From the NCBI GenBank assembly GCA_001606155.1, contig LODT01000025.1:620001-684000 (forward strand): a DNA stretch of 64,000 bases, given 5' to 3'. The position numbers were made by a program, and so were the translations under genes. The notes under the pieces are model-generated. The model worked only from the letters and a program-made list of their open reading frames with translations, had not been told where the DNA came from and made no database searches. The stretch comes from Tieghemostelium lacteum. Taxonomy: Eukaryota > Evosea > Eumycetozoa > Dictyosteliales > Raperosteliaceae. Of this stretch, positions 12,138 through 40,603 are shown in pieces (position 1 is the stretch's first letter; every line of letters starts with the position of its first letter).

Positions 12138-12703
12138 ATTGTGAACAGTCTTTTTTGGTGTAGAGCTATAGTCAAAACGAGAGTCTCTATTACACACCCT
12201 CACCCATACACTAATTAGGGAAGATGGAAGAATCTGGTAGGGGTTCTACCCCCTTCAAAACATTAACCCCCTACTTTTAGTTTTTTATTCATAAACATTC
12301 AATTATAATAATTCTATTTTTGGAATTTTTACAATCTATTATAAAGAAATCTAAAATAGTGAAATAGTGTTATTATAAATAATAGCACTAACACTATATT
12401 TTATCTTTAAAATTTAGGAATTTAATATGTTTTGATAGAAACATATTTTAAATGTTTCAGAATAATTTGCTAATTCCTCAACACTCACAACACACAAATG
12501 ATCACATGTTTTTTTACAATAAAAAAAAAGGGAAAGGTGATTGTGGGTAAGAAAATTTAATCTAATTTTATAATTAATAATGAACAACATGTGGGGTTCT
12601 GAACAATTCAACATTATAAATTTAAAATTTCAATTCGTTCACTGAATAGATTAAAGTTTTAAATATTTAAAACAAATATATTTATTTCTTTTAATTAAAT
12701 ATC
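12138..12703. other. intergenic region with CA-rich box and small hairpin
   Basis: A 566-bp gap before the first B-box/Sel1 gene. It contains a C/A-rich box around 12190-12216 (ACACACCCTCACCCATAC) resembling dictyostelid G-box/CA-rich developmental elements, and a short GGGGT-TCT-ACCCC hairpin near 12242-12255. The conserved upstream module (12481-12556) is listed separately. The rest is A/T runs. No gene was recognised. Confidence 0.5.
12481..12556 (+). promoter_or_regulatory. upstream module shared with the distant B-box/Sel1 paralogue
   Basis: Contains in order CACAACACACAAATGATCACA, split here as CACAACACAC then AAATGATCACA, followed by a T-run, TTTACAATAA, and GTGATTGTGGGTAAGAAAA. The same order occurs reverse-complemented at 62486-62560, upstream of the minus-strand paralogue. 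The module ends 148 bp before the ATG here and 151 bp before the ATG there. Conservation of both sequence and spacing between genes 50 kb apart suggests a functional promoter element. Confidence 0.6.
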
Positions 12704-15078: not shown

Positions 15079-15592
15079 AAACATCTTTTTTGTATTTATA
15101 TATTTAAACTTTTCAAAATCTTAATCGTCTGTGATTTTGAAAATTTGTAGTTTCATCTTTAAAATTCTTTAAATATAGAAATACAAAGTGGGAATATATT
15201 TATTTTTGGAAGTATTTATTTATTTTTATTTTTGATTATTTTTTTTTAAAAATTACCATCAACACACTTCTCAAACACACACACAAAAATAGAGTCGTGA
15301 TCAAAAATGTAGCTTTTTTATTCATAGTGTATGTGAAACAACCCACAATTTTAATTTGTTGGGAGGTTGATTCTCAAGTTAAATTAGAAGTTTTAAAGAG
15401 TTCTCTCTTGTCACTATTTATAATTCCTAAAACCTCACCTAGACAGTAAAGCTATCAAATATATAAATTAACTGTAGTACAAACAACAACAACGACAATA
15501 TTAACAAATACCACCAAGATCAATAACAATAATTTTTTATTTAAAGTTTAAAACCACCAATTCAACAAAAATTTTTTAAATTACCATTAGAT
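15079..15592. other. intergenic region / promoter of B-box/Sel1 gene 2
   Basis: A 514-bp spacer between two tandem paralogues. It holds a CA-rich stretch (about 15258-15293), a TGATCA followed by a T-run (near 15299-15320), and CCCACAA near 15340. These partly echo the module upstream of the other two paralogues, but order and spacing are not well kept. The last 120 bp are CAA-rich leader-like sequence (ACAACAACAACGACAA). No ORF was recognised. Confidence 0.45.
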
Positions 15593-18157
15593 ATGGAACT
15601 TATTTGTAAAATTCATAATGAATTTTATACTATTGGATGTTTAATTTGCAGTGAAGTGTTATGTAAAACATGTTCAAAATATGATTTAAAACACGTTGAC
15701 CATTCAAAAGCACCTTTTAAAGAACTTAAAAAGAAAATGTGTAAAATGCACAATAAGAGATTTAAGATTTGTTTAGAATGTGAAAAATTTGGATGTCCTA
15801 GTTGTTTTGCATTACATGGATCAGTTCATTTGAATCATACCCTTGGTTTCTGTCCAATAAAATGTCCTTCTGGTGATGGTGAGGTACCAAGTAACAGTCC
15901 TGGTACACTCTCTTCAACGCTTTTAGTATTTCCAGAAATCAAAAAGAAATCACCATTTTTTGAAATTGATGAAGAGATTGATAATGAAGTTTACAGATTT
16001 GATTTAGGTAGAGGATTCGAATATATGAGCTTAAAACAGTATTCAAAGGCTGAAGAACACTTTATTTCAGCTGCTGAAAATGGTAGTGTTCTAGCATGTA
16101 TACAACTATCAAAAATGAAGATGGGTATGGGTGAAGGTGAATTTAGAGTGGAGACAAATTACAATCAGGTTTATAACTGGGCTTTGGTTGCTGCTGATGG
16201 TAATTATCCTGAAGGAGAGTATATCCTTGCGATGCAGTACAAAAACGGGTTGGATAGAGTCATTGATCCTCACCCTGAACTTGCATGTCAACTCTTTAAG
16301 AATAGTGCAGAGAATGAGTATCCAGATTCACAATTTGAATATGCACTCTGTTTGTTAAATGGGTTAGGAACAGACCAAGATATTTCAGCATCACTGTTTT
16401 ATCTGGAAAAGGCTGCTCAAAGTAACCACTCAGAAGCTTGCATTGCATTAGGTCAATACCACTACCTAAAACAAAACACACAAGCTGCTATAATGTGGTT
16501 CTGGAATGCCATTGATTTAGAGAATTCTCGAGCATTTTATTATCTTGGATGTTGCATGGAATTTAAAAAATTACCCAACTACTATGATGCTTATAATTTC
16601 TATTTCAGATCTGCTATGGTTCTTGAACCTCTTGCATTTCTAAGACTTGGTGAACTTTATAGAATGGGAAAAGGAGTTGATAAAAATTATATAAAATCAC
16701 GTATATTTTATCAAAAAGCTATACAGCTGAATGTGGTTTCTGCTATTGAGAACATCCGTCATATTGATCTGTTGGAGAAACTCAGTGTTTTTGGGGATCA
16801 ACCTAGAGAACCTATAGACATCAATAACATGGAGCTACTTCAAAAATACTTGGATGAAGATGAATTGGCACTTATTGCATTACCTTTTCCAAGTACCAAT
16901 CAGTATACCGCCAAAGTTTACTTCAATAAGGACTTTAATATAGTAGTAAAGACACATATTCCACTACCATATTCCACATGGGTATCTGTTAAACCAACTG
17001 TCACTAAACCTAGAAACATTCAACCACCACATATATCCAATACCATCAACTATCCATTACCAAATCCACCTATTATCTACCAATTCGATAGCTTTGATCT
17101 TCCACCTGAAAAACTACAAACAGAAAAGGATCAAAAGAACATGGAAGATTTTAAAATTAGATTACAATACTACAGAAACCAAACTCTAAATAGAGACAAT
17201 GTACTTGATTCCTGTAGATCACTTGAAGATCAAAACCATCCTCCTGCTATCGTACTAGTTGCCCTATGTTTTAGAAATCTAGGATACGGTCCCCAATACG
17301 TTAAATACCTTCTAAGAGCTGCCAAATTAAACTACCACAAAGCATTCTTTTATGTAAGTTCAAAATGATTATATTAAATATTAAATTGATATGTTGATAT
17401 TAATAGAGTCTATTATTAGTTATCTCTGGATCACTTTGTAAAATGTCGTGAAGAAATTGATGATAAAATTGAAAATGCAAAATTGGCATTAAAATGGGGT
17501 ATTAAAGGATCAGAGCTGGGAAATATAGAATGCTTCTATACAGTTGGAAGTATATTGGCTCATTATCTGGTTGATGAAGCATCTGCTGTGTTATGGTATG
17601 ACAAATATGTAAAATCAACAATTAAAGGTGTAGAAGATTTAAGATTTACCTATTCTGTCATGGCTAATCTCTATGCAAAGATTGGTAAATACAATGAGAG
17701 TTTAAATCATCTCCATTTAGCATGTTCTCCAATTACTGCAAATACACCAATTGGAGTTAGATTTTCACTTGCCTACTACTACTACTATGGGTTAGGATGT
17801 GAAGTTAATTATCAATTGGCATTATACAATGCCGAGAGATCAGCCATTGATAAACAGGATCCAACTCATAGTTCAGGAATGTTCTTTATAGGTATGATGT
17901 ATCTACGTGGTCATGGTGTACACAAGAATCTAAGACTTGCACTCCACTGTTTTAAAGAACACATGAAAATACGTCCAGATGACAAAATGGTTGAAAAGTT
18001 CATTCTTAAACTCAAACCATGTACCCATCCATTTACTCGTGAGTCTACCATATTGAAGGCATTACGTGAAATGGATAGAGATGAAAACAAAACAAACTAT
18101 ATTAAAATTCAATATAGAAATCTCTTTCCTAATACCTCTATATTTATTGGAAAATAG
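15593..18157 (+). CDS. B-box / Sel1-repeat protein 2, 832 aa, two exons
   Basis: Seen: exon 1 is 15593-17353, the intron 17354-17419 (66 bp, GTAAGT...TTATTAG), exon 2 17420-18157. The upstream AG at 17405-17406 would put a stop in frame, so the acceptor at 17418-17419 is chosen; it also matches the paralogues. Two tandem B-box-like zinc sites are clear: C5-x2-H8, C16-x2-C19, C24-x2-C27, H34-x2-H37, and a second from C50-x2-H53 to about H82. Sel1-like repeats start near residue 145 and continue through exon 2 (for example FEYALCLLNGLGTDQDISAS). It is more divergent than paralogues 1 and 3 are from each other, with a proline-rich insert near residues 460-510. Function is unknown; a scaffold role is inferred. 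Confidence 0.9.
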
Positions 18158-21978: not shown

Positions 21979-23397
21979 ATGTATAATTTTATTATAATTC
22001 AAAAAATTATAGATATTTTAAATGATGATAATTCAAGTGTAAATCTATTATGTACATGTAAATTAATGTACTCTTTTATCAAATCTATAAGATTTAATAG
22101 ATGTCCTTTATTATATTGGATAGATCAAAAACAGTGTAATACAACATCACTATACCATTTATTTCATCAATATTTTAGTAATAGTATAAAGAGAGTTTCA
22201 ATACCACCTAAATTCCAAAAGATTACAATTAGTAATCTACAGTACCTACAAGAGCTTCAGAATTTCAATATATGGAAAGTTATTTATACTATTCCAACAC
22301 CAGTTAACTTGTGTATTAATCAGTATGTTCAATCATTGGTTTTACAGGATTTTCAGTATATCAGAGAAGGACAAATACCCAATACCATCACTAATTTAAA
22401 GGTGAAAAACTGGAGAGGATCGGTTGGAATTCAGTTGGGATCCATACCCACATCTGTTGTAAAATTAGTTATTGTTAATGTATATACTGAGACTATACCT
22501 TCAGAATACATTCCTTCTAGTATACGAATATTCAAAATAAAGAATTGGTGTGGATCTAAAGAGGGATGTGACACATTGTGTTCTGGACAGATACCCAATC
22601 TAGTAGACACTTTGAAATTCAATTTGACATTTAATAGAAGTATACAAGTTGGTGGCATTCCAGAATCTGTTAAGAAACTGGAATTTGAACAAGACTACAA
22701 TCAACCCATACTAGAACGCATTCTACCACAGAGATTGGAGTATCTGAAATTTGGTAAAATGTTTAATCAACCTGTTCAATCGATATTCTGTAACACTAGA
22801 TCACTAAAGAAATTGGAATTTGATTTTCATTTCAATCAGCCTATATCCATTGGGACACTACCAGAGTCGTTAGAGTACATTAAATTCGGGTATAGTTTCA
22901 ATCAGAATATAGATATAGGTGTGCTACCTATACAGTTAAAGTCATTGGTATTCGGTCACAATTTCAATTCCATGTTACCAAACGGTGTTTTACCAGACAC
23001 TCTAGAGTCCTTGCGTTTCGGTTACGCCTTCAACCAAAAGATTTCATCTCTACCCTCCAGTTTAAAAGATTTACAATTTGGACACTGTTTTAATCAACAA
23101 GTAACAAAAGGTGTAATACCAAATTCATTGAGAACTCTTAGATTTGGATACGAGTTTAACTCGTCTCTTGCATTACCTCAAAATAGCTCACTAAAAACTC
23201 TAATTATGGGATACTCATTCAACCCTAATGCACTCTCATTCTCAAAGTTTAATCAACCCCTTGCTATCCCTCACTCTGTTACTAAATTGGATCTTGGAAA
23301 TTCCTTTAAACAACCCCAACAACCAAATTCTTCACCATCTCTTAAATCAATTCAAATTCAATCAAATAATAAATCCCTTGTATTTTTAAATATTTAG
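21979..23397 (+). CDS. FNIP-repeat protein, 472 aa
   Basis: Seen: an N-terminal F-box-like helix (QKIIDILNDDNSSVNLLCTC), then from about residue 75 many leucine-rich-like FNIP repeats of about 22 residues. They are recognisable by alternating phrases such as LPESLEYIKFGYSFNQ, LPDTLESLRFGYAFNQ and IPNSLRTLRFGYEFN. Known: FNIP repeats are a dictyostelid-expanded solenoid, often joined to F-box-like starts, and probably serve substrate recognition. The molecular target is unknown. There is no membrane segment or zinc site. Its stop is 23 bp from a fossil fragment of the neighbouring IPT/TIG cluster, so the cluster boundary lies here. Confidence 0.93.
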   Translation: MYNFIIIQKIIDILNDDNSSVNLLCTCKLMYSFIKSIRFNRCPLLYWIDQKQCNTTSLYHLFHQYFSNSIKRVSIPPKFQKITISNLQYLQELQNFNIWKVIYTIPTPVNLCINQYVQSLVLQDFQYIREGQIPNTITNLKVKNWRGSVGIQLGSIPTSVVKLVIVNVYTETIPSEYIPSSIRIFKIKNWCGSKEGCDTLCSGQIPNLVDTLKFNLTFNRSIQVGGIPESVKKLEFEQDYNQPILERILPQRLEYLKFGKMFNQPVQSIFCNTRSLKKLEFDFHFNQPISIGTLPESLEYIKFGYSFNQNIDIGVLPIQLKSLVFGHNFNSMLPNGVLPDTLESLRFGYAFNQKISSLPSSLKDLQFGHCFNQQVTKGVIPNSLRTLRFGYEFNSSLALPQNSSLKTLIMGYSFNPNALSFSKFNQPLAIPHSVTKLDLGNSFKQPQQPNSSPSLKSIQIQSNNKSLVFLNI

Positions 23398-23419
23398 TTT
23401 TAATTATTTTAAAACCTTT

Positions 23420-23575
23420 TTTATTTAATTCCAAATCAATTAATCCAGCAAAATCACCCATGAAATATGGAATTAGTTAAATTGATGAATTTGAAGTACT
23501 GAATGTTTTACTTGTTATTGTTTTAAAGTTTAATCCACACAGTTATTTATGTTTTTTGAGGATTATGGTTTGATT
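23420..23575 (-). pseudogene. fragment of a seventh IPT/TIG gene (exon 1 remnant)
   Basis: On the minus strand this stretch aligns with the 3' half of exon 1 of the adjacent minus-strand gene (25635-25860). Shared blocks include TTAATTCCAAATCAATTAAT followed by CCAGCA, AATTGATGAATTTGAAGTAC followed by TGAATGTTTTA, and AATCCACACAGTTATT. It is shortened by several internal deletions and has no open frame. It lies in the same orientation as, and downstream of, copy 1. It appears to be what is left of a further tandem copy whose remainder is missing next to the FNIP gene. Confidence 0.75.
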
Positions 23576-23942: not shown

Positions 23943-26204
23943 TCATTTAAAGGCAAAAGACATCTTCTTTTTAATGTTCGAGAAGGAATCTTTAATAGAT
24001 GATTTAATATTTTTCATTCTTTCGTGACGTTGGAAACTAAACAGTAGTGCAAAGATAAGAAGTCCAATGATTAATGATACTGTTGGTACAACAATGGCTA
24101 TAATGAGTGAACTTCTTGAGATTCCGTTTTTATCAATATTTTCAGGAGGGATTAAATATCTAAGGAATGTTCCATTGACAATTAATCCATTGACATTCAA
24201 TTGTATTTCAAACTCTAAAGTATCATTGGGAAGTGGTACGAGCTTACAGATTGTGGTTGTGAAATTTATTACTTTTGGATCATAACATGGTAATGGATAG
24301 GATATGATATTGATTGTTGATGGTAATCCATGTGATGATCCAACAATGGTTAAAGAATTGTCACCATTATGAACAATACTGTTGATTGTTGGTGGTTGAT
24401 AACTGAATTTGATATCATTTGGATTTGAAATGATCGAATTATTCAATCTCATATCAATGATAAGATCTTTTCCAGTTCCATTTGAAAGATCACATGAAAT
24501 AATATCTCCTGCAAGACTAATTGATTTGAGTTTACAATCAATATTATCATTTATAATGATCAATGGTTTATCATTATTATGAAAGAATGCACCATGAATT
24601 GATAATTCACCTCCTGGTGTTTCAATGAATCCAGATAGTTTTCTGATAATTGGTTTGATTGTAAATGTTATTGAACTGCTGGCAAGACCTTTGAAAACAG
24701 TGATATTTCCAGATTGTGAATTGATTGGAAGTTCTACAATCAAATATTCATTGAATTTCGAAATGACTTTTAATGATTTTGAATCAAGATAAACTGTGAT
24801 ATTATCATTTCCTGATATCAAATCATATCCAGAAATATTCATGAATGGATGTTCTGTCAGATTTAATGATCCTCCAATATATATTGATCCAAGTGTTGGT
24901 GATCGATAATATGAGAAATTAGGAGAATCAACAGATGATATTCCATCAATTGAAACAACAACTTGATGATTTGAGCCAATTCCACTTTCTAAATTACAAA
25001 TCAAAGTGATATAATTATCTGCTGAGGTTGAAGTTGGTGATGAACATGTTTTAGTCCCAATCTTGACCAATAAATTGGTATTAGTTCCATTATCACTTTT
25101 TGAATTTAGAAAGAATCCTTTAACTGTTAGAATACCTCCTAATTCAGGTAAAGAATTGATTTGTGTAACTTTTGGTTCTGATTTATTTCAGTAAATAGAA
25201 TTGGTTAGATTATTAAATTCATTGAATATAGATTCAATTAAAAATACATACTGAATTGAAGTTTAAATGGTTGAATTGATTTGACTCCTTTCACAGAAAC
25301 ATCAATATCAAATGATTTTGTCAAAGTATTGATGAATTTGAAGATAATCATTGATTCATTGTAGAATATATAAGATGATTGAAGAATTGTTGATCCTCCA
25401 ACTGTTATCAATGAATTTACTTTATATTTGACATCTCTGAAGTTTTCACCAAATATTGTGATGAAACTTTGACTTGTACTTGCTTGAGAATATTCAATCT
25501 TTGAAATTTTTGGGTCTGTTTGTCATTTAAAGTTAAATATCTTAAAATTTTATAATTTTTAAAACAATAAAAAATAATTATAAATACATACTTTCAAATG
25601 AAGTATTTAATGTTGATTTATACAAAACACTTTCTTTTAATTCCAAATCAATTAATCCAGCAATATTATCAAATTGAAATGTGAAATGAGTTGAATTGAT
25701 GAATTTGATTGTTTCATTTGAAGTACTGAATATTTTAGTCACTTCACTTGAAATTGCTTTAATGTTTAAATATATATCAAACAAATTGGGATTGTATGGT
25801 TGAAAATACAATCCACTCAGAGTTATTGTGTTGTTATTTGAGAATGATGGTTTTGAAACAACTGTCAAATTAAATTTGCCATCTAAAAAAATCAATTCAT
25901 CCTTTATGAAACCATTCTCAAAATGAAATCTATAAGTTTCAGTTTGTGAATTTTCATTTAATATTATAGAATAAAGGATAGCCATTGAATTTCGAGCTAT
26001 TTCTTGTGGAATATAAAACTGTTGAGATCTATCAGTTGTAATATTTTTTAAATTTATCAATCCTCCACTGTATGTTATTTGAATTGATAAACTTGAAATT
26101 TTATTAGTAGATGGGATTATATCAGTAACATTTTGAGTTTCTATAAAATTTAAAAATGAAACGAAAATGGTTAAAGAAATGAATAAATATTTTGTGTATA
26201 TCAT
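23943..26204 (-). CDS. IPT/TIG (tgr-like) membrane protein copy 1, 703 aa, three exons
   Basis: Seen: exon 1 is 26204-25592, exon 2 25515-25252, exon 3 25177-23943; introns are 76 and 74 bp with GTATGT donors and AG acceptors, all phase 1. A signal peptide (to about residue 23, ...FLNFIETQ) precedes a variable N-terminal region (about 24-115) and several immunoglobulin-like E-set/IPT domains; NxS/T glycosylation sites are abundant. One membrane span near the C-terminus (SSLIIAIVVPTVSLIIGLLI) is followed by a short basic tail (RHERMKNIKSS...). Known: this matches the dictyostelid Tgr architecture (TgrB1/TgrC1 allorecognition receptors). Inferred: a cell-surface recognition protein. Copy 1 is divergent to copy 2 and shares a 340-bp promoter interval. 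It keeps the HE dipeptide that copies 2-5 lack. Confidence 0.88.
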
Positions 26205-26281
26205 TTCAATTTAATGTTATTAAAAAATATAGATTACAAATTGATACCCTTTAAAACTAATAATTTTTTTTGTATATATTT

Positions 26282-26339
26282 AAATCAAAGATGATTTATG
26301 ATTCAACATCTTTTTCATTTTGATCACTTCTAAAAATAC
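26282..26339 (-). promoter_or_regulatory. cluster promoter module, copy 1
   Basis: Minus-sense order: TTTTTAGAAGTGATCAAAAT, GAAAAAGATGTTGAATCATA, AATCATCTTTGAT. The same module precedes all six cluster genes at about 57-78 bp from the ATG (78 bp here). With the plus-strand module at 26408-26474 it forms a large imperfect inverted repeat. Confidence 0.75.
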
Positions 26340-26407
26340 AATTTTGTAAATTTCCAAAAATAAAACTAGTGTTAAGTTTTAACTGTTTTAATTTTTTTTT
26401 CATTATT

Positions 26408-26474
26408 TTTAAAAATGATCACAATGAAAAAGATGTTGAATCCCAAATCATCTTTGATCTAAAAATAGTTTATA
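26408..26474 (+). promoter_or_regulatory. cluster promoter module, copy 2
   Basis: Order: AAAAATGATCACAATG, AAAAAGATGTTGAATCCC, AAATCATCTTTGATCTAAAA, then ATAGTTTATA. It ends about 75 bp before the ATG of copy 2. It is the mirror partner of the copy 1 module, the two centres being about 130 bp apart. Confidence 0.78.
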
Positions 26475-26544
26475 CCCACTAAATTAAATTTTTATTTTAT
26501 TTGTTTTGTTTAATATTAAAAGTTAATAGTGTTATAAATTTGAA

Positions 26545-28778
26545 ATGACAAAACAAATATACATTTATTTGTGCATTTTCATTTCATTTTCAACAACAAT
26601 TACTGAATCCCAAACTGTAACAGATATAGATTTTAATGCCAATACATTTTCAAATTTTAAACTCGTGATCACATACAATGGAGGATTCATAAATTTAAAA
26701 AATTTAACAACGGATATATCTCAACAAATATGCACCCCTTTAGAAACATTTAGAAGTGGAATCTCTATCACATATTTGGTAACTTTAACAGAAAATTCAC
26801 AAACTGAAACCTATAAATTAAATTTTGAAAATGGTTTTACTACAGAGAAAGTATTGTTACTAAGTAACAAATTTAATTTGACAGTTGTTTCAAAACCATC
26901 ATTCTCAAACAACAACACAATAACTATGAGTGGATTGTATTTTCAACCATATAATTACAGTTTACAAGATTATAATTTATATATCAAGGCAATAACAAGT
27001 GAAGGAAGTAAAACATTCAGTACTTCAAATGAAACAATCAAATTCATCAATTCAACTCATTTCACATTTCAGATTGATAATCTTGCTGGATTAATTGATT
27101 TGGAATTAAAAGAAGATGAATATCAATCAACATTCAACACTTCATTTGAAAGTATGTATTACATAATTTTTTTTTTAAATAAATTTTTATTAATTCTAAT
27201 ATTAAATTAAAAACAAACCCAAAAATTTCAAAGATTGAATATTCTCCAGCAAGTACGAGTCAAAGTTTCATCAAAATATTTGGCGAAGACTTCAGAGATG
27301 TCAAATATAAAGTAAATTCATTGATCACAGTTGGAGGATCAACAATTCTTCAATCATCTTATATATTCTACAATGAATCAATGATTATCTTCAAATTCAT
27401 CAATACTTTGACAAAATCATTTGATATTGATATTTCTGTCAAAGGAGTCAAATCAATTCAACCATTTAAACTTCAATTCAGTATGTATATTTAATTTAAA
27501 CTATTTTCAATGAATTTAATAACCAATTCTATATATTGAAATAAATCAGAACCAAAAGTCACACAAATCAATACATTACCTGAATTAGGAGGTATTGTAA
27601 CAATTAAAGGATTCTTTCTCAATTCAAAAAGTGATAATGGAACTAATACCAATTTATTGGTCAAGATTGGGACTAAAACATGTACATCACCAACCTCAAC
27701 CTCATCTGATAATTATATCACTTTGATTTGTAATTTAGAAAGTGGAGTTGGATCTGATCTTCCAGTTGTTGTTTCAATTGATGGAATATCATCTGTTGAT
27801 TCTCCTAATTTCTCATATTATCGATCACCAACACTTGAATCAATATATATTGGAGGATCATTAAATCTGACAGAACATCCATTCATGAATATTTCTGGAA
27901 GTGATTTAACATCAGGAAGTGATAATATCACAGTTTATCTTGATTCAAAATCATTAAAAGTCATTTCGAAATTCAATAAATATTTAATTGTAGAACTTCC
28001 AATCAATTCACAATCCGGAAATATCACTGTTTTCAAAGGTCTTGCAAGTAGTTCAATAACATTTACAATCAAACCAATCATCAGAAAACTATCTGGATTC
28101 ATTGAAACACCAGGAGGTGAATTATCAATTCATGGTGCATTCTTTCATGATAATGATAAGCCAGTGATCATTATAAATGATAATATTGATTGTAAACTCA
28201 AATCAATTAATCTTGCAGGAGATATAGTTTCATGTGATCTTTCAAATGGAACTGGAAAAGATCTTATCATTGATATGAGATTGAATAATTCGATCATTTC
28301 AAATCCAAATGATATCAAATTCAGTTATCAACCACCAATAATCAACAGTATTGCTCATAATAGTGACAACTCAATAACCATTGTTGGATCATCACATGGA
28401 TTACCATCAACAATCAATATCATAAACTATCCATTATCATGTTATGATCCAAAAGTAATAAATTTCACAACTACAATCTGTAAACTTGTATCATCACTTC
28501 CCAATAACACTTTAGAATTTGAAATACAATTGAATGTCAATGGATTAATTGTCAATGGAACATTCCTTAAATATTTAATCCCTCCTGAAAAAATTATTAA
28601 AAACGGAATCTCAAGAAGTTCACTCATTATAGCCATTGTTGTACCAACAGTATCATTAATCATTGGACTTCTTATCTTTGCACTACTGTTTAGATTCCAA
28701 CGAATGAAGAATATTAAATCATCTATCAAAAATTCCTTCTCGAACACTAAAAGGAAAATTGAATTTGCCTTTAAATGA
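26545..28778 (+). CDS. IPT/TIG (tgr-like) membrane protein copy 2, defective intron 1 acceptor
   Basis: By homology exon 1 is 26545-27151, exon 2 27217-27480, exon 3 27550-28778 (699 codons if joined). The intron 1 acceptor reads ACAAACCC where other copies have ACAGATCC or ACAGACCC, so the invariant AG is AA. No AG lies within the intron. The first downstream AG (27232-27233) gives an immediate stop; the next (27248-27249, TTCTCCAG) would be in frame and drop eleven codons of the first IPT domain. Without splicing the product is a secreted 221-residue N-terminal fragment. The rest looks intact: signal peptide, IPT domains, one C-terminal membrane span, short basic tail without the HE dipeptide. 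This is therefore an incipient pseudogene, an alternatively spliced gene, or a source of secreted ectodomain. Confidence 0.8.
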
Positions 28779-29225
28779 AGATTCCAACCACATCTAGTTG
28801 ATATCACAAAGAACAAAACTTGATAACTTTGAAGTATATATTAATCAGAATTAAATCAAATTGATTATAAACTTAAATCAATTAGTTTAACAGGTAGATT
28901 TTGATTCATATCATTCCTGTGAAGTTGTGTTTTTATTTACAGGTTGAATTGGAGATTAAAACTTCAATACATCGTCAATTATTTTACATGTATCGAAATC
29001 ACTATCCCAATTTATTCAAATTCAAAGAATCGACCACAAATAAAAGTAATATAATATAAATGTTATAAAAAAGTTTACTAGGTTACTTTATGAGTTTAAT
29101 TAATTGAATGGTGTGTATTGAGATTTTTATATTTAACAACTGGAATTCAAACTTTGAACAAATATTCAACCCACTGTAATTTGTATGTTTTCTTGAATTA
29201 ATGGTTGTGATGTGTTTTTTTTTAT
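28779..29225 (+). repeat. 3' flank of copy 2 with decayed coding tail
   Basis: Directly after the stop, 28779-28850 aligns with the extra C-terminal coding sequence of copy 6 (TTCCAACCACATCTAGTTGAT). At 28860-28900 follows a stretch resembling the exon 3 segment that codes IDCKLKSI. A conserved block around 28945-29045 (GAATTGGAGATTAAAACTTC and beyond) recurs behind copies 3, 4 and 5. Here it is still open in one frame for about 38 codons; in the others it has stops. No functional gene is claimed. Confidence 0.6.
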
Positions 29226-29276
29226 AAAAAAGATGTTGAATCCCAAATCATCTTTGATCTAAAAATAGTTTATTAT
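29226..29276 (+). promoter_or_regulatory. cluster promoter module, copy 3 (shortened)
   Basis: Has AAAAAGATGTTGAATCCC, AAATCATCTTTGATCTAAAA, ATAGTTTATTATAAAG, identical to copy 2 over most of its length. The upstream TGATCACAATG half is degraded. It ends about 70 bp before the ATG of copy 3. Confidence 0.75.
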
Positions 29277-29345
29277 AAAGTCTCTTAATTTTTTAATTTT
29301 GAAGTTGTTTAATATTAATTTTTAATATTTTGTTATAAAATTGAA

Positions 29346-31586
29346 ATGATAAAACAAATATACATTTATTTGTTCATTTGCATTTCATTTTCAATTACTT
29401 TTATTATATCTCAATCAGTTACAAATATAGGTCCTAATCCCAATACAATTTCAAATTTAACATTTAAAGTCACATACAGTGGAGGATTGGTGAATTTAAA
29501 AAATTTAACAACTGATATATCACAAAATTTATATATTCCACAAGAAACCTATAGAGATCAATCAAACATCATTTATTCTATCACATTAAATGAAAATTCA
29601 CAAACTGAAACATATAGATTTCATTTTGAGAATGGTTTCATAAAAGAATTTTTAATGGATTTAAAAATTAAATTTAATTTTAAAGTTGTTTCAAAACCAT
29701 CATTCTCAAACAACAACACAATAACTCTGAGTGGATTGTATTTTCAACCATACAATTCCAATTTTAGTGATAATGATTTATATATCAAGGCTATAACAAG
29801 TGAAGTGACTAAAACATTCAGTACTTCAAATGAAACAATCAAATTCATCAATTCAACTCATTTCACTTTTCAGATGGATAATCTTGCTGGATTAATTGAT
29901 TTGGAATTAAAAGAAGGAGGAGAATATCGATCATCACTCAACACTTCATTTGAAAGTATGTATATGTATTTATTTTTAGTAATATAAATTCTCAAATTAA
30001 CTATATGTATATTAAACAGATCCAAAAATAACAAAGATTGAATATTCTCAAGCAAGTACAAGTCAAAGTTTCATCACAATATTTGGCGAAGACTTCAGAG
30101 ATGTCAAATATAAAGTAAATTCATTGATCACAGTTGGAGGTTCAACAATTTTTCAATCTTCTTATATATTCTACAATGAATCAATGATTATCTTCAAATT
30201 CATCAATACTTTGACAAAATCATTTGATATTGATATTTCTGTCAAAGGAGTCAAATCAATTCAACCATTTAAACTTCAATTCAGTATGTATATTTAATTT
30301 AAACAATATTCAATGAATTTAATAATCTAACCAATTCTATTTACTGAAATAAATCAGAACCAAAAGTCACACAAATCAATAGTTTACCTGAATTAGGAGG
30401 TATTGTAACAATTAAAGGATTCTTTCTCAATTCAAAAAGTGATAATGGAACTAATACCAATTTATTGGTCAAGATTGGAACTAAAACGTGTACATCACCA
30501 ACTTCAACCTCAGCAGATAATTATATCACTTTGATTTGTAATTTAGAAAGTGGAGTTGGGTCTGATCTTCCAGTTGTTGTTTCAATTGATGGAATATCAT
30601 CTGTTGATTCTCCTAATTTCTCATATTATCGATCACCAACACTTGGATCAATATATATAGGGGGATCAGGTAATCTGACAGAACATCCATTCATGAATAT
30701 TTCTGGATATGATTTAACATCAGGAAATGACAATATCACAGTTTATCTTGATTCAAAATCATTAAAAGTCATTTCGAAATCGAATGAATATTTGATTGTT
30801 GAACTTCCAATCAATTCACAATCTGGAAATATCACTGTTTTCAAAGGTCTTGCAAGTAGTTCAATAACATTTACAATCAAACCAATCATCAGAAAACTAT
30901 CTGGATTCATTGAAACACAAGGAGGTGAATTATCAATTCATGGTGCATTCTTTCATAATAATGATAAACCATTGATCATTATAAATGATAATATTGATTG
31001 TAAACTCAAATCAATTAATCTTGCAGGTGATATTATTTCATGTGATCTTTCAAATGGAACTGGAAAAGATCTTATCATTGATATGAGATTGAACAATTCG
31101 ATCATTTCAAATCCAAATGATATCAAATTCAGTTATCAATCACCAACAATCAACAGTATTGTTCATAATTTTGACAACTCAATAACAATTGTTGGATCAT
31201 CACATGGATTACCATCAACAATCAATATCATAAACTATCCATTACAATGTTATGATCCCAAAGTAATTAACTTCACCACCACAATCTGTAAACTCATATC
31301 ATCACTTCCCAATGATACTCTAGAATATGAAATACAATTGAATGTCAATGGATTAATTGTCAATGGAACATTCCTTAGATATTTAATCCCTCCAGAATAC
31401 ATTGTTAAAAACGGAATCTCAAGAAGTTCACTCATTATAGCCATTGTTGTACCAACAGTATCATTAATCATTGGACTTCTTATCTTTGCACTACTGTTTA
31501 GATTCCAACGAATGAAGAATATTAAATCATCGATCAAAAATTCCTTCTCAAACACTAAAAAGAAAATTGAATTTGCCTTTCAATGA
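29346..31586 (+). CDS. IPT/TIG (tgr-like) membrane protein copy 3, 700 aa, three exons
   Basis: Seen: exon 1 is 29346-29955, exon 2 30020-30283, exon 3 30358-31586; introns are 64 and 74 bp, both with GTATGT donors and CAG acceptors. Signal peptide (to about residue 22), then an N-terminal region almost identical to copy 6 (11 differences in 203 codons), E-set/IPT domains, a C-terminal membrane span and a short basic tail lacking the HE dipeptide. The N-terminal match to copy 6 contrasts with a C-terminus that groups with copies 2, 4 and 5, which suggests exchange between copies. Cell-surface recognition is inferred from architecture. Confidence 0.9.
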
Positions 31587-32189
31587 AGATTCCAACCACA
31601 TCAAGTTGATATCACAAAAACAAACCTTGATAACTTTGAAGCTGATATCAATCAGAATTAAATCAAATTGATTATAAACACGAATCAATTAGTTTAACTG
31701 GTGATTTTATTGTGATTTACCGAATCAAACAATCTTTTAGTTGATATGTGATTCGAATGAAATCATAAAATTGAAAATAGATTATGGATTAGCATCAATG
31801 TTCTGTTTTCATTCTACTCAAGATTGGGCCATATCATTAATAGGAAGTTGTGTTTTAATTTATAGGTTGAATTGGAGATTAAAACTTCAATACATCATAA
31901 ATTATTTTACATGAATTGAAATCACTATCTCAATTGATTCAAATTCAAAGAATCGACCACAAATAAAAGTAATATTTATTATAAATCTTATAAAATAGTT
32001 TACTTTTATGAGTTTAATTAATTGATTTTGAGATATTTTGAATTTAAATTTTAATGAACAATCGAATAATTTTTTAATAGGTTGATTGTTTGAATGTGTA
32101 TGTTTTCTTTAAAGTGTTTTTTATTGAATAAAAAATGATGGGTTATGAAAAATTATAAAAAGAAAAATTTATTTTTGATTTAATTGTTT
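31587..32189 (+). repeat. 3' flank of copy 3 with decayed coding tail
   Basis: 31587-31660 aligns with the copy 6 C-terminal extension. 31665-31700 resembles exon 3 DNA for IDCKLKSI but carries a changed residue. 31790-31860 and 31865-31975 are the conserved flank blocks shared with copies 4 and 5. Stops and length changes make it non-coding. Confidence 0.6.
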
Positions 32190-32251
32190 TTAGAAATGAT
32201 CACTATGAATAAGATGTTGAATTGCCAAATAATCTTTGAACTAAAAATAGT
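32190..32251 (+). promoter_or_regulatory. cluster promoter module, copy 4
   Basis: TTTTAGAAATGATCACTATG, AATAAGATGTTGAATTGCC, AAATAATCTTTGAACTAAAA, ATAG. It is the most divergent of the six modules and sits closest to its ATG (about 57 bp). Confidence 0.72.
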
Positions 32252-32307
32252 TTTATAAAAACTTCAATTTTTTTATTCTTATTAATATTAAAAAACATTC
32301 AATAGAA

Positions 32308-34543
32308 ATGATACTCACAAATTATTTATTCATTTATTTAACCATTTTCATTTCATTTTCAACAACATTTATAAAATCTCAAAATGTTACTGATATATAC
32401 CCTTATCCTAACACAATTTCAAATTTTAAAATTGAAATCGCATACAGTGGAGGATTGATAAATTTAAAAAATATAACAACTGATAAATCACAAATATTAT
32501 ACATTCCACAAGAAAGTAGTCGGACCTCAGTCATGATTTCATACATTCTCCAGCTATACCCTAATTCACAAAGTGAAAATTATAAATTTCATTTTGAAAA
32601 TGGTTTGATTATTGAAACATTTATTTTTTTAAGAGAGAAATTTAATTTGACAGCCGTTTCAAAACCATCATTCTCAAACAACAACACAATAACTCTGAGC
32701 GGATTGTATTTTCAACCATACAATCTCTCATTGGGTGAATATAGTTTAAACATTACAGCAATAACAAGTGAAGGAAGTAAAACATTCAGTACTTCAAATG
32801 AAACAATCAAATTCATCAATTCAACTCATTTCACATTCCAGATGGATGATCTTGCTGGATTAATTGATTTGGAATTGATAGAGGGATTATATGAAACAAC
32901 ATTAAATACATCATTTGGAAGTATGTATTAAAAATTTTATGATTTTTCTTTTTGATATTAACAAAAATAAAAACAGATCCCAAGATTTCAAAGATTGAAT
33001 ATTCTCCTGCAAGTACAAGTCAAAGTTTCATCACAATATTTGGTGAAGACTTCAGAGATGTGAAATATAAAGTAAATTCATTGATCACAGTTGGAGGATC
33101 AACAATTCTTCAATCATCTTATATATTCTACAATGAATCAATGATTATCTTCAAATTCATCAATACTTTGACAAAATCATTTGATATTGATGTTTCTGTG
33201 AAAGGAGTCAAATCAATTCAACCATTTAAACTTCAATTCAGTATGTATATTTAATTTAAACTATATTCAATTAATTTAATAATCTAACCAATTCTATTTA
33301 CTGAAATAAATTAGAACCAAAAGTTACACAAATCAATACATTACCTGAATTAGGAGGTATTGTAACAATTAAAGGATTCTTTCTCAATTCAAAAAGTGAT
33401 AATGGAACTAATACCAATTTATTGGTGAAGATTGGAACTAAAACGTGTACATCACCAACTTCAACCTCATCTGATAATTATATCACTTTGATTTGTAATT
33501 TAGAAAGTGGAGTTGGATCTGATCTTCCTGTTGTTGTTTCAATTGATGGAATATCATCTGTTGATTCTCCTAACTTCTCATATTATCGATCACCAACTCT
33601 TGGATCAATATATATTGGAGGATCTGGTAATCTGACAGAACATCCATTCATGAATATTTCTGGAAGTGATTTAACATCAGGAAGTGATAATATCACAGTT
33701 TATCTTGATTCAAAATCATTAAAAGTCATTTCGAAATTCAATGAATATTTGATTGTTGAACTTCCAATCAATTCACAATCTGGAAATATCACTGTTTTCA
33801 AAGGTCTTGCAAGTAGTTCGAGAGCATTTTCGATCAAACCAATCATCAGAAAACTATCTGGATTCATTGAAACACAAGGAGGTGAATTATCAATTCATGG
33901 TGCATTCTTTCATGATAATGATAAACCATTGATTATTATAAATGATAATATTGATTGTAAACTCAAATCAATTAATCTTGCAGGAGATATTGTTTCATGT
34001 GATCTTTCAAATGGAACTGGAAAAGATCTTATCATTGATATGAGATTGAATAATTCGATCATTTCAAATCCAAATGATATCAAATTCAGTTATCAACCTC
34101 CAATAATCAACAGTATTGTTCATAATTTTGACAACTCAATATCCATTGTTGGATCATCACATGGATTACCATCAACAATCAATATCATAAACTATCCATT
34201 ACCATGTTATGATCCAAAAGTAATAAATTTCACAACCACAATCTGTAAACTTGTATCATCACTTCCCAATGACACTTTAGAATTTGAAATACAATTGAAT
34301 GTCAATGGATTAATTGTCAATGGAACATTCCTTAGATATTTAATCCCTCCTGAAAATATTATTAAAAACGGAATCTCAAGAAGTTCACTCATTATAGCCA
34401 TTGTTGTACCAACAGTATCATTAGCCATTGGACTTCTAATCTTTGCTCTACTGTTTAGATTCCAACGAATGAAGAATATTAAATCATCCATCAAAAATTC
34501 CATCTCAAAAACTAAAAAGAAAATTGAATTTGCCTTTAAATGA
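32308..34543 (+). CDS. IPT/TIG (tgr-like) membrane protein copy 4, 701 aa, three exons
   Basis: Seen: exon 1 is 32308-32920, exon 2 32977-33240, exon 3 33315-34543; introns are 56 and 74 bp, the second with a TTAG acceptor. Signal peptide to about residue 24 (...TTFIKSQ). Its N-terminal region is the most divergent of the plus-strand copies (for example SSRTSVMISYILQLYPNS). From VSKPSFSNNNTITLSG onward it rejoins the common sequence. E-set/IPT domains, one membrane span, basic cytoplasmic tail of the short type. It appears fully intact. Confidence 0.9.
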
Positions 34544-35150
34544 AGATTCCAACCACATCAAGTTGATATCACAAAGAACAAACCTTGATAACTTAGAAGT
34601 GGATATCAATCAGAATTAAATCAAATTGATTGTAAACTCAAATCAATTAGTTTAGCCGGTGATTTACCTAATCAAACAGTATATCTTTTAGTTGATATGT
34701 GATTCGAATGATATCATAAAATTGAAAATAGATTATGGGTTAGCATAAATGTTCTGTTTTAATTCTACTAAAGATTTAAGTCATATCATTTTTGGGAAGT
34801 TGTGTTTTAATTTAGAGCTTGAATTGGAGATTAAAACTTCAATAGATCTTCAATTATATTACAAGTATTGAAATCACTATCTCAATTGATTCAAATTCAA
34901 AGAATCGACTATAAATAAAAGTAATATTTATTTGAATGTAATAAAAAAGTTTACTTTTATGAGTTTAATTAATTGCTTCTGAGATATTTTGAATTCAAAT
35001 TTTAAATTTTAATGAATTATCGAATAATTTTAATGGTTTGATTGTTTAAATGTGTATGTTCTCGTTAAAGTGTGGTTGAAATTTAAAAAAATGGTGAATG
35101 AAAAAATAAAAAAAGAAAACTTTATTTTTGACAATTTACAAATAAAATTG
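34544..35150 (+). repeat. 3' flank of copy 4 with decayed coding tail and exon 3-like relic
   Basis: After the stop, 34547-34612 aligns with the copy 6 tail. 34622-34675 can be read as IDCKLKSISLAGDLP and, a little further on, LLVDM, closely resembling the exon 3 segments IDCKLKSI(N/S)LAGD and LIIDM. Stops follow. Shared flank blocks come at 34745-34805 and 34815-34925. Confidence 0.62.
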
Positions 35151-35218
35151 TTTTTAGAAGTGATCACAATGAAAAAGATGTTGAATCACAAATAATCTTT
35201 GAACTAAAAATAGTTTTT
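35151..35218 (+). promoter_or_regulatory. cluster promoter module, copy 5
   Basis: TTTTTAGAAGTGATCACAAT, GAAAAAGATGTTGAATCAC, AAATAATCTTTGAACTAAAA, ATAGTTTT. Nearly identical to the copy 6 module. It ends about 71 bp before the ATG of copy 5. Confidence 0.78.
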
Positions 35219-35288
35219 TATTAAGTTGAGATTCTCAATTTTATTTTTTAATATTGAAGTTGTTTAATATTAATAATAAAAATTAGAT

Positions 35289-37518
35289 ATGACAAAACAT
35301 TTATTTATTTATTTGTTGATATTCATTTCATTTTCAACAATATATATAGAATCTCAAACTATAACTCATATAAATGATAATCACAATACAATTTCGAGCT
35401 TATCATTTACTATAACATACAGTGGAGGTTTGACAAATTTAAAAAACATAACAACTGATAAATCACAACAATTATATATTCCACAAGAAATATCTAGAGA
35501 TACAGATTTTATCTTCTATTCTATAACATTAAATGAAAACTCACAAACTGAAATCTATAAATTTCATTTTGAAAATGGTTTCATAATGGATCAATTGTTA
35601 TTTTTAGACATCAAATTTAATTTGTCAGTTGTTTCAAAACCATCATTCTCAAATAACAACACAATAATTATGAGTGGATTGTATTTTCAACCATATAATC
35701 TCAGCAGTATTATTCATTTACACATTAAAGTAATCATAAGTGAAGTGACTAAAATATTCAGTACTTCAAATGAAACAATCAAATTCATCAATTCAACTCA
35801 TTTCACATTTCAGATGGATGATCTTGCTGGTTTAGTGAATTTGGAATTAAATGAAGGGCCAGTGTATAAATCAACATTCAATACTTCTTTTGAAAGTATG
35901 TTTATTTATTTATTTTAGCAATTTATATTCTAATGTATTTCTATTAAACAGATCCCAAAATTACTAAGATTGAATATTCTCCTGCAAGTACAAGTCAAAG
36001 TTTCATCACAATTTATGGTGAAAACTTCAGAGATGTGAAATATAAAGTAAATTCATTGATCACAGTTGGAGGTTCAACAATTCTTCAATCATCTTATATA
36101 TTCTATAATGAATCAATGATTATCTTCAAATTCATCAATACTTTGACAAAATCATTTGATATTGATATTTCTGTCAAAGGAGTCAAATCAATTCAACCAT
36201 TTAAACTTCAATTCAGTATGTATATTTAATTTAAACAATATTCAATTAATTTAATAGACTAACCAATTCTATTTACTGAAATAAATCAGAACCAAAAGTC
36301 ACACAAATCAATACTTTACCTGAATTAGGAGGTATTATAACAATTAAAGGATTCTTTCTCAATTCAAAAAGTGATAATGGAACTAATACCAATTTATTGG
36401 TGAAGATTGGAACTAAAACGTGTACATCACCAACTTCAACCTCATCTGATAATTATATCACTTTGATTTGTAATTTAGAAAGTGGAATTGGGTCTGATCT
36501 TCCAGTTGTTGTTTCAATTGATGGAATATCATCTGTTGATTCTCCTAACTTCTCATATTATCGATCACCAACTCTTGGATCAATATATATTGGAGGATCA
36601 GGTAATCTGACAGAACATCCATTCATGAATATTTCTGGAAGTGATTTGACATCAGGAAATGATAATATCACAGTTTATCTTGATTCAAAATCATTAAAAG
36701 TCATTTCGAAATTCAATGAATATTTGATTGTTGAACTTCCAATCAATTCACAATCTGGAAATATCACTGTTTTCAAAGGTCTTGCAAGTAGTTCAAGAAC
36801 ATTTACAATCAAACCAATCATCAGAAAACTATCTGGATTCATTGAAACACAAGGAGGTGAATTATCAATTCATGGTGCATTCTTTCATAATAATGATAAA
36901 CCATTAATCATTATAAATGATAATATTGATTGTAAATTCAAATCAATTAGTCTTGCAGGAGATATTATTTCATGTGATCTTTCAAATGGAACTGGAAAAG
37001 ATCTTATCATTGATATGAGATTGAATAATTCGATCATTTCAAATCCAAATGATATCAAATTCAGTTATCAACCACCAACAATCAACAGTATTGTTCATAA
37101 TTTTGACAACTCAATAACAATTGTTGGATCATCACATGGATTACCATCAACAATCGATATCATAACCTATCCATTACCATGTTATGATCCTACAGTAACA
37201 AACTTTAACACCACAATCTGTAAACTCATATCATCACTTCCCAATGATATTCTAGAATTTGAAATACAATTGAATGTCAATGGATTAATTGTCAATGGTA
37301 CATTCCTTAGATATTTAATCCCACCAGAAAATATTATTAAAAACGGAATCTCAAGAAGTTCACTCATTATAGCCATTGTTGTACCAACAACATCATTAAT
37401 CATTGGACTTCTTATCTTTGCATTGCTGTTTAGTTTCCAACGAATGAAGAATATTAAATCATCCATCAAAAATTCCTTCTCGAAAACTAAAAAGAAATTT
37501 GAATTTGCCTTTAAATGA
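35289..37518 (+). CDS. IPT/TIG (tgr-like) membrane protein copy 5, 699 aa, three exons
   Basis: Seen: exon 1 is 35289-35895, exon 2 35952-36215, exon 3 36290-37518; introns are 56 and 74 bp. Signal peptide to about residue 22 (...STIYIESQ). A distinct N-terminal region includes substitutions in the otherwise common stretch (SSIIHLHIKVIISEVTK; LAGLVNLELNEG). Exons 2 and 3 are nearly uniform with the other copies. The membrane span is followed by FSFQRMKNIKSS, without HE. Intact. Confidence 0.9.
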
Positions 37519-38086
37519 AAAGATTCCAACCACAAACCTTGATAACTTTGAAGCTGATATCAGAATTAAATCAAATTGTAAACTCAAATCAATTGGTTTA
37601 ACAGGTAGATTTTGTTTGTGATTTACCGATATATAAATCTTTTGGTGTGTGATTCGAATGATATCATAAAATTGAAAATAGATTATGGATTAGCATCAAT
37701 ATTATGTTTTCATTCAATTCAAGATTGAGCCATATCATTATTGGGAAATTGTGTTTTAATTTTACAGCTTGAATTGGAGATTAAAACTTCAATACATCGT
37801 CAACTATTTTACATGAATTGAAATCACTATCTCAATTGATTCAAATTCAAAGAATCGACCACAAATAAAAGTAATATTTATTTGAATGTTATAAAAAAGT
37901 TTACTTTTATGATTTTAATTAATTGAATGGTGTGTATTGAGATTTTTATATTTATCTTAAAACTTTAAATTAATAATCACAAATTATTTGTATGTTTTCT
38001 TGAATTGAAAAATGATGAAAAATAAAAGTGGTTATGAAAAAAATAAACACAGAAATTTTTTTTTTGACAATTTACAAATAAAATTG
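37519..38086 (+). repeat. 3' flank of copy 5 with decayed coding tail
   Basis: 37519-37570 is a shorter, more decayed match to the copy 6 C-terminal extension. 37570-37612 resembles exon 3 DNA, and 37680-37750 and 37765-37880 are the shared flank blocks. No open frame of note. Confidence 0.58.
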
Positions 38087-38149
38087 TTTTTAGAAGTGAT
38101 CACAATGAAAAAGATGTTGAATCACAAATAATCTTTGAGCTAAAAATAG
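38087..38149 (+). promoter_or_regulatory. cluster promoter module, copy 6
   Basis: TTTTTAGAAGTGATCACAAT, GAAAAAGATGTTGAATCAC, AAATAATCTTTGAGCTAAAA, ATAGG. It ends 78 bp before the ATG, the same spacing as copies 1 and 2. Confidence 0.78.
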
Positions 38150-38226
38150 GTTATTATAAAGTCTTTTAATTTTTTATTATTGAAGTTGTGTAATATTAAA
38201 AATTAATATTGTGTTATAAAATTGAA

Positions 38227-40603
38227 ATGACAAAACAAATATATATTTATTTATTCATTTTCATTTCATTTTCAATTACTATTATTATATCTCAATCAGT
38301 TACAAATATAGGTCCTAATGCCAATACAATTTCAAATTTAACATTTAAAGTCACATACAGTGGAGGATTGGTGAATTTAAAAAACATAACAACTGATATA
38401 TCACAAAATTTATATATTCCACAAGAAACCTTTAGAGATCAATCAAATATCATTTATTCTATAACTTTAAATGAAATTTCACAAACTGAAACCTACAGAT
38501 TTCATTTTGAGAATGGTTTCATAAAAGATTTTTTAATGGATTTAAAAATTAAATTTAATTTGGAAGTTGTTTCAAAACCATCATTCTCAAATAACAACAC
38601 AATAACTCTGAGTGGATTGTATTTTCAACCATACAATTCCAATTTTAGTGATAATGATTTATATATCAAGGCTATAACAAGTGAAGTGACTAAAACATTC
38701 AGTACTTCAAATGAAACAATCAAATTCATCAATTCAACTCATTTCACATTTCAGATGGATAATCTTGCTGGATTAATTGATTTGGAATTAAAAGAAGGAT
38801 TGGAATATCGATCATCACTCAACACTTCATTTGAAAGTATGTATATGTTTTTATTTTTAGTAATATATATTCTAATATCTATATGTATATTAAACAGATC
38901 CAAAAATTTCAAAGATTGAATATTCTCAAGCAAGTACAAGTCAAAGTTTCATCACAATATTTGGTGAAGACTTCAGAGATGTCAAATATAAAGTAAATTC
39001 ATTGATCACAGTTGGAGGATCAACAATTCTTCAATCATCTTATATATTCTACAATGAATCAATGATTATCTTCAAATTCATCAATACTTTAACAAAATCA
39101 TTTGATATTGATATTTCTGTCAAAGGAGTCAAATCAATTCAACCATTTAAACTTCAATTCAGTATGTATAATTAATTTAAACAATATTCAAAGTATGTAA
39201 TAGTCTAACCAATTCTATATGTAAATAAATCAGAACCAAAAGTCACACAAATCAACACATTACCTGAATTAGGAGGTATTGTAACAATTAAAGGATTCTT
39301 TCTCAATTCAAAAAGTGATAATGGAACTAATACCAATTTATTGGTCAAGATTGGAACTAAAACGTGTACTTCACCAACTTCAACTTCAGCAGATAATTAT
39401 ATCACTTTGATTTGTAATTTAGAAAGTGGAGTTGGGTCTGATCTTCCTGTTGTTGTTTCAATTGATGGAATATCATCTGTTGATTCTCCTAATTTCTCAT
39501 ATTATCGATCACCAACACTTGGATCAATATATATTGGAGGATCATTAAATTTGACAGAACATCCATTCATGAATATTTCTGGAAGTGATTTGACATCAGG
39601 AAGTGATAATATCACAGTTTATCTTGATTCAAAATCATTAAAAGTCATTTCGAAATTCAATGAATATTTGATTGTTGAACTTCCAATCAATTCACAATCC
39701 GGAAATATCACTGTTTTCAAAGGTCTTGCAAGTAGTTCGAGAGCATTTTCAATCAAACCAATCATCAGAAAACTATCTGGATTCATTGAAACACCAGGAG
39801 GTGAATTATCAATTCATGGTGCATTCTTTCATGATAATGATAAGCCTGTGATCATAATTAATGATAATATTGATTGTAAACTCAAATCAATCAGTCTTGC
39901 AGGAGATATTATTTCATGTGATCTTTCAAATGGAACTGGAAAAGATCTTATCATTGATATGAGATTGAATAATTCGATCATTTCAAATCCAAATGATATC
40001 AAATTCAGTTATCAACCACCAACAATCAACAGTATTGTTCATAATAGTGACAACTCAATAACAATTGTTGGAACATCACATGGATTACCATCAACAATCA
40101 ATGTCATAACCTATCCATTACCATGTTCTGATCCTACAGTAACAAACTTCACAACCACTATTTGTAAACTTGGATCGCCTCTTCCCAATGACACTCTAGA
40201 ATTTGAAATACAATTGAATGTCAATGGATTAATTGTCAATGGTACATTCCTTAGATTTTTATACCCACCAGAAAATACTGGCAAAAAAGGAATCTCAGGA
40301 ACATCCCTCATTATAGCCATTGTTGTACCATCAGCATCATTAGCCATTGGACTTCTTATCTTTGCATTACTGTTTAGTTACCAACGTCACGAAAGAATGA
40401 AGAATATTATATCAGCCATCAAAAATGCCCTCTCAATCACTAAAAGGAAGATAGTATTTGCCTTTAAATGGGTATTCCAACCACATCTAGTTGATACCAC
40501 TAAGACCAACTTTGATAACTATAATGCGGATATCAATCAAAATGTTCTTCCAAGTAATATTAAGTTACCTAAAAAAAAGAAATTCTCACCACCAAAGAGA
40601 TAA
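38227..40603 (+). CDS. IPT/TIG (tgr-like) membrane protein copy 6, long cytoplasmic tail, 747 aa
   Basis: Seen: ATG at 38227 (MTKQIYIYLFIF), aligned with the other copies' starts. Exon 1 is 38227-38836, exon 2 38898-39161, exon 3 39234-40603; introns are 61 and 72 bp. The architecture is that of the other copies, but the last third of exon 3 diverges. The span is SLIIAIVVPSASLAIGLLIF, then RHERMKN as in copy 1. After the FAFK where the other copies stop, the frame continues (KWVFQPHLVDTTKTN...) for 47 more residues, ending PKKKKFSPPKR. The tail is basic and Pro/Lys-rich, so it could bind cytoskeletal or SH3/WW-type partners (inference). Downstream DNA lacks the flank blocks of the other copies, marking the array's end. 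Confidence 0.92.

Follow-up and report, generated by a model that had tools for sequence, protein, structure and literature searches.

Gene array and predicted proteins

We analysed a stretch of 64,000 nucleotides from the dictyostelid Tieghemostelium lacteum (contig LODT01000025.1, positions 620,001 to 684,000, forward strand; hereafter the window, with positions counted from its first letter), in which positions 23943–40603 hold six homologous three-exon genes, g1 on the minus strand and g2–g6 on the plus strand, whose proteins carry repeated IPT/TIG-type domains (Table 1). A first-pass annotation made from the sequence had placed six genes between these same limits, which are the stop-codon ends of the inverted g1 (23943) and of g6 (40603). 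The compact array with one inverted copy that it described is recovered both by our splice models and by a repeat search made without gene models, which spaces the five forward copies 2.8–3.0 kb from start to start and finds the inverted g1 with 94–96% complementarity across the conserved part. This six-copy pattern is far beyond chance. The first two genes stand head-to-head, with 340 bp separating their start codons.

Exon 1 measures 607–613 nt, exon 2 264 nt and exon 3 1229–1370 nt, and the introns 56–76 nt (intron 1) and 69–74 nt (intron 2). Every donor opens with GTATGT, acceptors end in CAG or TAG with the exception of g2 intron 1, and exon 2 is in phase 1-1 in all six copies. An open frame of about 2.1 kb runs through each gene. 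The first-pass description needs correcting for g2, whose intron 1 has lost its acceptor AG; five genes look intact and g2 is doubtful. The proteins of g1–g5 are 85–92% identical to that of g6.

The predicted proteins (699–747 residues, g2 counted as normally spliced) begin with a hydrophobic leader and an N-terminal domain of no recognised class, continue with five or six domains of IPT/TIG type, and end in a single membrane span followed by a basic tail. The Pfam model TIG (PF01833) matched all six, with a best E of 1e-11. Leader, span and topology were read from hydropathy only: each protein has an N-terminal hydrophobic leader, exceeding the cut-off of 1.6 in g3 and g6 only, and a single strong hydrophobic span at about residues 644–677. 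The leader, the several IPT/TIG domains and the single C-terminal span of the first-pass annotation are thus borne out, and its short basic tail describes g1–g5 (22–28 cytoplasmic residues) and not g6 (73). With the proteins cut into pieces, PF01833 matched the second half of exon 1 in g6 (E 7e-4) and not in g1 or g5, the exon 2 piece in g5 (E 1.6e-4) and not in g6, and three successive domains of exon 3 (E 4e-6 to 4e-3), several of these piecewise matches falling under the gathering score; the pieces covering the first 90 mature residues and the last, membrane-near domain gave nothing meaningful in Pfam. Exon 2, which is phase-symmetric, thus corresponds to about one IPT domain. The proteins carry 18–21 N-glycosylation sequons and six conserved cysteines. 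Relatives sought in prokaryote genomes and viral contigs were not found, and hence nothing indicates transfer or contamination.

Partition of variability among the copies

The variable N-terminus noted at first pass sits on a constant stalk: mean protein identity among the copies starts at 63% for the N-terminal domain, rises to 81% for the adjoining IPT domain and to 94–96% for the four domains after it, and falls back to 88% for the membrane-near domain. Identity at the DNA level is about 91–97% across exon 2, intron 2 and exon 3, and mostly 55–80% in exon 1, intron 1 and the flanks, a division that includes non-coding DNA (intron 1 66%, intron 2 91%, 3' flank about 50–75%). Pairwise synonymous divergence (dS) lies mostly between 0.31 and 0.53 in exon 1 (0.10 for the g3–g6 pair) and between 0.08 and 0.21 in exons 2–3. 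Exon 1 with intron 1, and the stretch from exon 2 to exon 3, each reject the tree of the other (approximately unbiased test, p 9e-91 and 9e-4), and a permutation test for shared fragments gave p 0.0007 for exons 2–3, the lowest value attainable with the 1500 permutations made, and p 0.09, not significant, for exon 1. Taken together, the intron contrast, the conflicting trees and the non-random shared variants argue for homogenisation of the stalk, through gene conversion or repeated unequal exchange, from which exon 1 is largely exempt. At four-fold sites the exons differ little (85% versus 88–90%), since scoring such a site requires agreement at the first two codon positions, which occurs mostly in conserved blocks. 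Variable residues cluster within exon 1 (p 0.0002), and near-invariant blocks at about codons 118–139 and 157–178 lie between the variable patches, which fall at codons 71–84, 101–117, 140–152 and 190–197. That the intron 1/exon 2 border should part a homogenised stalk from a diverse tip makes this an instructive exon-bounded pattern.

Upstream element, g2 splice defect, g6 tail and gene relics

A 26-nt element (GATGTTGAAT-N4-AATNATCTTTGA) lies upstream of all six genes and nowhere else in the window. Its pattern has five matches where 0.05 would be expected; the g4 copy, which has a one-base insertion, was found by alignment. The promoter region around the element is otherwise diverged, and a TGATCA-like palindrome precedes the element in most copies. 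Since two copies of the element face each other between g1 and g2, the pair resembles an inverted unit with a separate promoter for each gene instead of a shared one, and would have arisen most simply by inversion of one unit.

Intron 1 of g2 (27151–27217) reads ACAA at its 3' end, against ACAG in the other five copies, leaving GT...ACAA. Owing to this loss, expression of g2 would need a cryptic acceptor, exon skipping or intron retention. An in-frame cryptic acceptor 33 nt downstream (first exonic base 27250) would yield a predicted 688 residues, skipping of exon 2 a predicted 611, and retention of intron 1 a predicted soluble protein of 221. Either a splice variant or a loss of function is possible.

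At the other end of the array, g6 reads TGG where g1–g5 stop at TGA, and continues for a further 45 codons. DNA homologous to part of this tail sits behind the stop of g1–g5, interrupted in every copy, which suggests that the long tail of g6 is probably the ancestral state. The residues HER follow the membrane span only in g1 and g6, the genes at the two array ends.

The surroundings of the genes also contain a decayed exon 1 and IPT-domain relics, the latter in the 3' flanks of g2–g5. Reversed sequence reached E 6e-5 in the control for the IPT relics, among which that of g5 is weakest. These 3'-flank relics are probably the remains of lost copies and of unequal exchange.

Table 1. Coordinates of the genes, upstream elements and relics in the window.
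Feature	Position	Strand	Description	Basis
g1	23943..26204	-	exon 1 26204-25592, exon 2 25515-25252, exon 3 25177-23943; 703 aa; inverted copy	splice model; inverted repeats 94-96%
g2	26545..28778	+	exon 1 26545-27151, exon 2 27217-27480 (by homology), exon 3 27550-28778; 699 aa if normally spliced	
g3	29346..31586	+	exon 1 29346-29955, exon 2 30020-30283, exon 3 30358-31586; 700 aa	splice model
g4	32308..34543	+	exon 1 32308-32920, exon 2 32977-33240, exon 3 33315-34543; 701 aa	splice model
g5	35289..37518	+	exon 1 35289-35895, exon 2 35952-36215, exon 3 36290-37518; 699 aa	splice model
g6	38227..40603	+	exon 1 38227-38836, exon 2 38898-39161, exon 3 39234-40603; 747 aa	splice model
g6 tail extension	40466..40600	+	45 codons (W VFQPHLVDTTKTN...PPKR)	tail blastn and translated 3' flanks
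Upstream element, g1	26285..26310	-		pattern match
Upstream element, g2	26432..26457	+		pattern match
Upstream element, g3	29232..29257	+		pattern match
Upstream element, g4	32213..32239	+	one-base insertion	alignment
Upstream element, g5	35177..35202	+		pattern match
Upstream element, g6	38113..38138	+		pattern match
g1-g2 divergent intergenic region	26205..26544	.	340 bp; two head-to-head upstream-element copies	
Decayed exon 1 relic, downstream of g1	23388..23533	-		77-83% nt identity; E 3e-22
IPT-domain relic, g2 3' flank	28840..28914	+		E within 1e-10 to 1e-6
IPT-domain relics, 3' flanks of g3, g4, g5	31651-31758; 34609-34666; 37540-37617			E 1e-10 to 1e-6

Relation to the Tgr family

Repeated extracellular IPT/TIG domains together with a leader, a single C-terminal span and a short tail, the last three read here from hydropathy, are the features by which Tgr proteins are defined (PMC12324515, PMC3188802), and all are found in the proteins of the array. 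The Tgr family of Dictyostelium discoideum and other group 4 species, notably its expanding subfamilies (tgrA/H/I/O, tgrB/E/J, tgrC/D/K), shares this plan and likewise shows lineage-specific duplication, recombination and gene relics (PMC12324515); gene fragments similar to our relics are known from the D. discoideum tgrBC locus (PMC12324515). The present genes, likened to that family by architecture, differ in forming a regular tandem array of about 2.9 kb per unit, of one subfamily and among housekeeping genes. We therefore regard the array as a lineage-specific Tgr-like expansion, assigned by architecture and probably encoding adhesion receptors.

The Tgr-like architecture in the first-pass annotation is supported, whereas a specific tie to the TgrB1/TgrC1 pair is not. 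Compared by profile, the first exon 3 domain reached only E 0.15–0.4 (11–13 bits, cutoff 27.9) against PF24612 Ig_TgrO1, the sole Tgr-named Pfam model seen. In D. discoideum TgrB1 acts as receptor for the ligand TgrC1 (PMC12324515, PMC3188802, PMC11088635), and the two genes form a divergent pair on a common promoter of 523 bp (PMC5288501), compared with 340 bp between g1 and g2. Instead of a divergent pair from two subfamilies with one promoter, however, g1 and g2 are sister copies of one subfamily with mirrored upstream elements, each gene having its own. Nor were wacA, chdB or DDB_G0280717 identified among the large open reading frames of the window, which reaches only about 23 kb either side of the array, whereas tgrBC in D. 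discoideum spans more than 104 kb. Orthology to TgrB1/TgrC1 is unsupported. A similarity does exist in how variability is distributed, the Ig folds and the intracellular domain being the least variable parts in tgrB1 polymorphism (PMC11088635), much as stalk and tail are among our copies.

Counts of IPT/TIG proteins are 55 for D. discoideum, 76 for D. lacteum and 110 for P. pallidum, and their families are large in all dictyostelids examined, but orthologues of tgrB1 were found in group 4 only and those of tgrC1 in D. discoideum only (PMC4931340); a later study found homologues of the tgrB1 and tgrC1 families in other group 4 species (PMC12324515). Because such families are large across dictyostelids, architecture alone says little on allorecognition, and the array, although newly described, is of a type expected in kind. 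Dictyostelid proteins that combine IPT/TIG with EGF and C-type lectin domains share the IPT/TIG domains and the lineage-specific expansion, their orthologue group having expanded outside D. discoideum (PMC4334915), but neither EGF nor C-type lectin domains were found by Pfam in our six proteins.

Possible functions of the array

The reading we favour, and hold to be somewhat better supported than not, is that of a recent lineage-specific tandem expansion of Tgr-kind single-pass IPT/TIG receptors, with variable tips on a converted stalk, that would serve adhesion or recognition. Several copies are probably co-expressed, since each is preceded by an upstream element of its own. The IPT rod encoded by exons 2–3 would hold the variable exon 1 tip off the membrane, where the tip would most likely bind a partner on a neighbouring cell, in adhesion or recognition during aggregation. 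Gene conversion between copies keeps stalk, span and tail near-uniform, while exon 1 either escapes conversion or is kept different by selection; with this diversity kept, one genome would display four or five distinct tips. The single long tail of g6 suggests a signalling copy among short-tailed ones, and g6 may be the main such copy, with g1–g5 as short-tailed ligand or adhesion copies. Of this reading, the sequence itself shows the gene structure, the domains, the topology read from hydropathy, the partition of variability and the conversion in the stalk, whereas expression, adhesion, binding by the tip and the division of labour are inferred.

Several points weigh against this reading. The Tgr assignment comes from architecture and Pfam models rather than from alignment to a named Tgr protein, and TIG domains occur in other dictyostelid surface proteins too. 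A sequence search of the PDB found no chain related to the six proteins, and AlphaFold2 given the six paralogues returned no usable fold (pLDDT 30 for exon 1 and 34 for exon 3). Furthermore, g2 may be non-functional, modelling of multi-nucleotide changes leaves no significant positive selection on the tip, and the basis throughout is the DNA sequence of one haplotype.

The selection results bear on the alternative that we find hardest to set aside, though we would still bet against it: a non-polymorphic adhesion multigene family, whose copies supply dosage or stage-specific adhesion and whose exon 1 is merely less constrained. The ratio omega is 0.26 in exon 3, indicating purifying selection, and 0.40 overall in the faster exon 1, below 1 as such a family would have it. 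Positive selection on the exon 1 tip was considered and rejected as evidence: the standard site-model comparison (M2a versus M1a) gives 20.8 for exon 1 and also flags exon 3 (19.2), and although the signal stays high on other trees, it drops to 2.8 without codons differing at all three positions, and to 2dlnL 5.6 (exon 1) and 0.1 (exon 3) when multi-nucleotide changes are modelled. That the signal vanishes under either treatment favours the adhesion family; on the other hand, the alternation of invariant blocks with hypervariable patches in exon 1 is unlike a uniform loss of constraint, and the coincidence of the homogenisation border with the intron 1/exon 2 border also speaks against it.

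An allorecognition role is possible. That the array is the allorecognition locus of the species, with tips polymorphic between strains and matching tips deciding co-aggregation, we nevertheless think unlikely. The architecture as in TgrB1/TgrC1, the one head-to-head pair, a tip that varies strongly over a stalk and tail that vary little, much as in tgrB1 (PMC11088635), and recombination with gene relics, as at D. discoideum tgrBC (PMC12324515), all point that way. Yet the head-to-head genes are sister copies and do not represent two subfamilies, none of the large open reading frames of the window was identified as a tgrBC marker gene, and the large subfamilies tgrA, H, I and O expand without a known allorecognition role (PMC12324515). 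Moreover, allorecognition needs variation between isolates, and a single haplotype cannot demonstrate it. A more specific version, an allorecognition locus independent of tgrBC that displays several tips at once on a converted stalk and signalling part, with diverse exon 1 and a long-tailed g6 receptor facing short-tailed ligands from the same subfamily, strikes us as distinctly improbable.

We also doubt, and rather strongly, that the array is a reservoir in which most copies are weakly expressed or decaying donors feeding an expressed tgr gene. A model of this sort has been proposed for tgrBC duplicates (PMC12324515), and the lost acceptor of g2 and the exon 1 and IPT relics would suit it; all six frames are open, however, exon 3 is under purifying selection, and each copy has kept its own upstream element. 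That the proteins are receptors for prey such as bacteria, and not for fellow amoebae, is very unlikely: variable surface tips would also suit the diversity of prey ligands, but the known members of this kind are developmental cell–cell receptors (PMC3188802).

The Tgr-like expansion favoured here offers a compact test case for the open question of how social amoebae maintain diversity in recognition proteins that must still function. If exon 1 and the number of copies turned out to be the main differences between isolates, the array would represent a second locus for recognition, or a reservoir serving such a locus, away from the region of D. discoideum tgrBC.

Neighbouring genes

The array is flanked by FNIP-repeat and Sel1-repeat genes, a terpene synthase, a WD40 gene, a short-chain dehydrogenase, ribosomal protein L4 and a cytoplasmic dynein heavy chain; further open reading frames nearby presumably encode a valyl-tRNA synthetase, an Obg-like GTPase and a SWIM-like protein. 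The closest solved structure to a dynein segment of 495 residues, at 86% identity, is that of a cytoplasmic dynein heavy chain (3vkh and related entries), which we take to be the D. discoideum protein. The G+C content, in 2-kb steps, ranges from 24 to 41% across the window. Gene content, dynein match and base composition agree with a dictyostelid that is not D. discoideum. The terpene synthase gene occupies 8554–9567 on the minus strand (PF19086, E 7e-10). Sel1/TPR-repeat genes lie at 12695–18157 and 59874–62371, one being confirmed by Pfam towards each window end (12704–14341 and 60611–62335), with similar-looking open reading frames adjacent.

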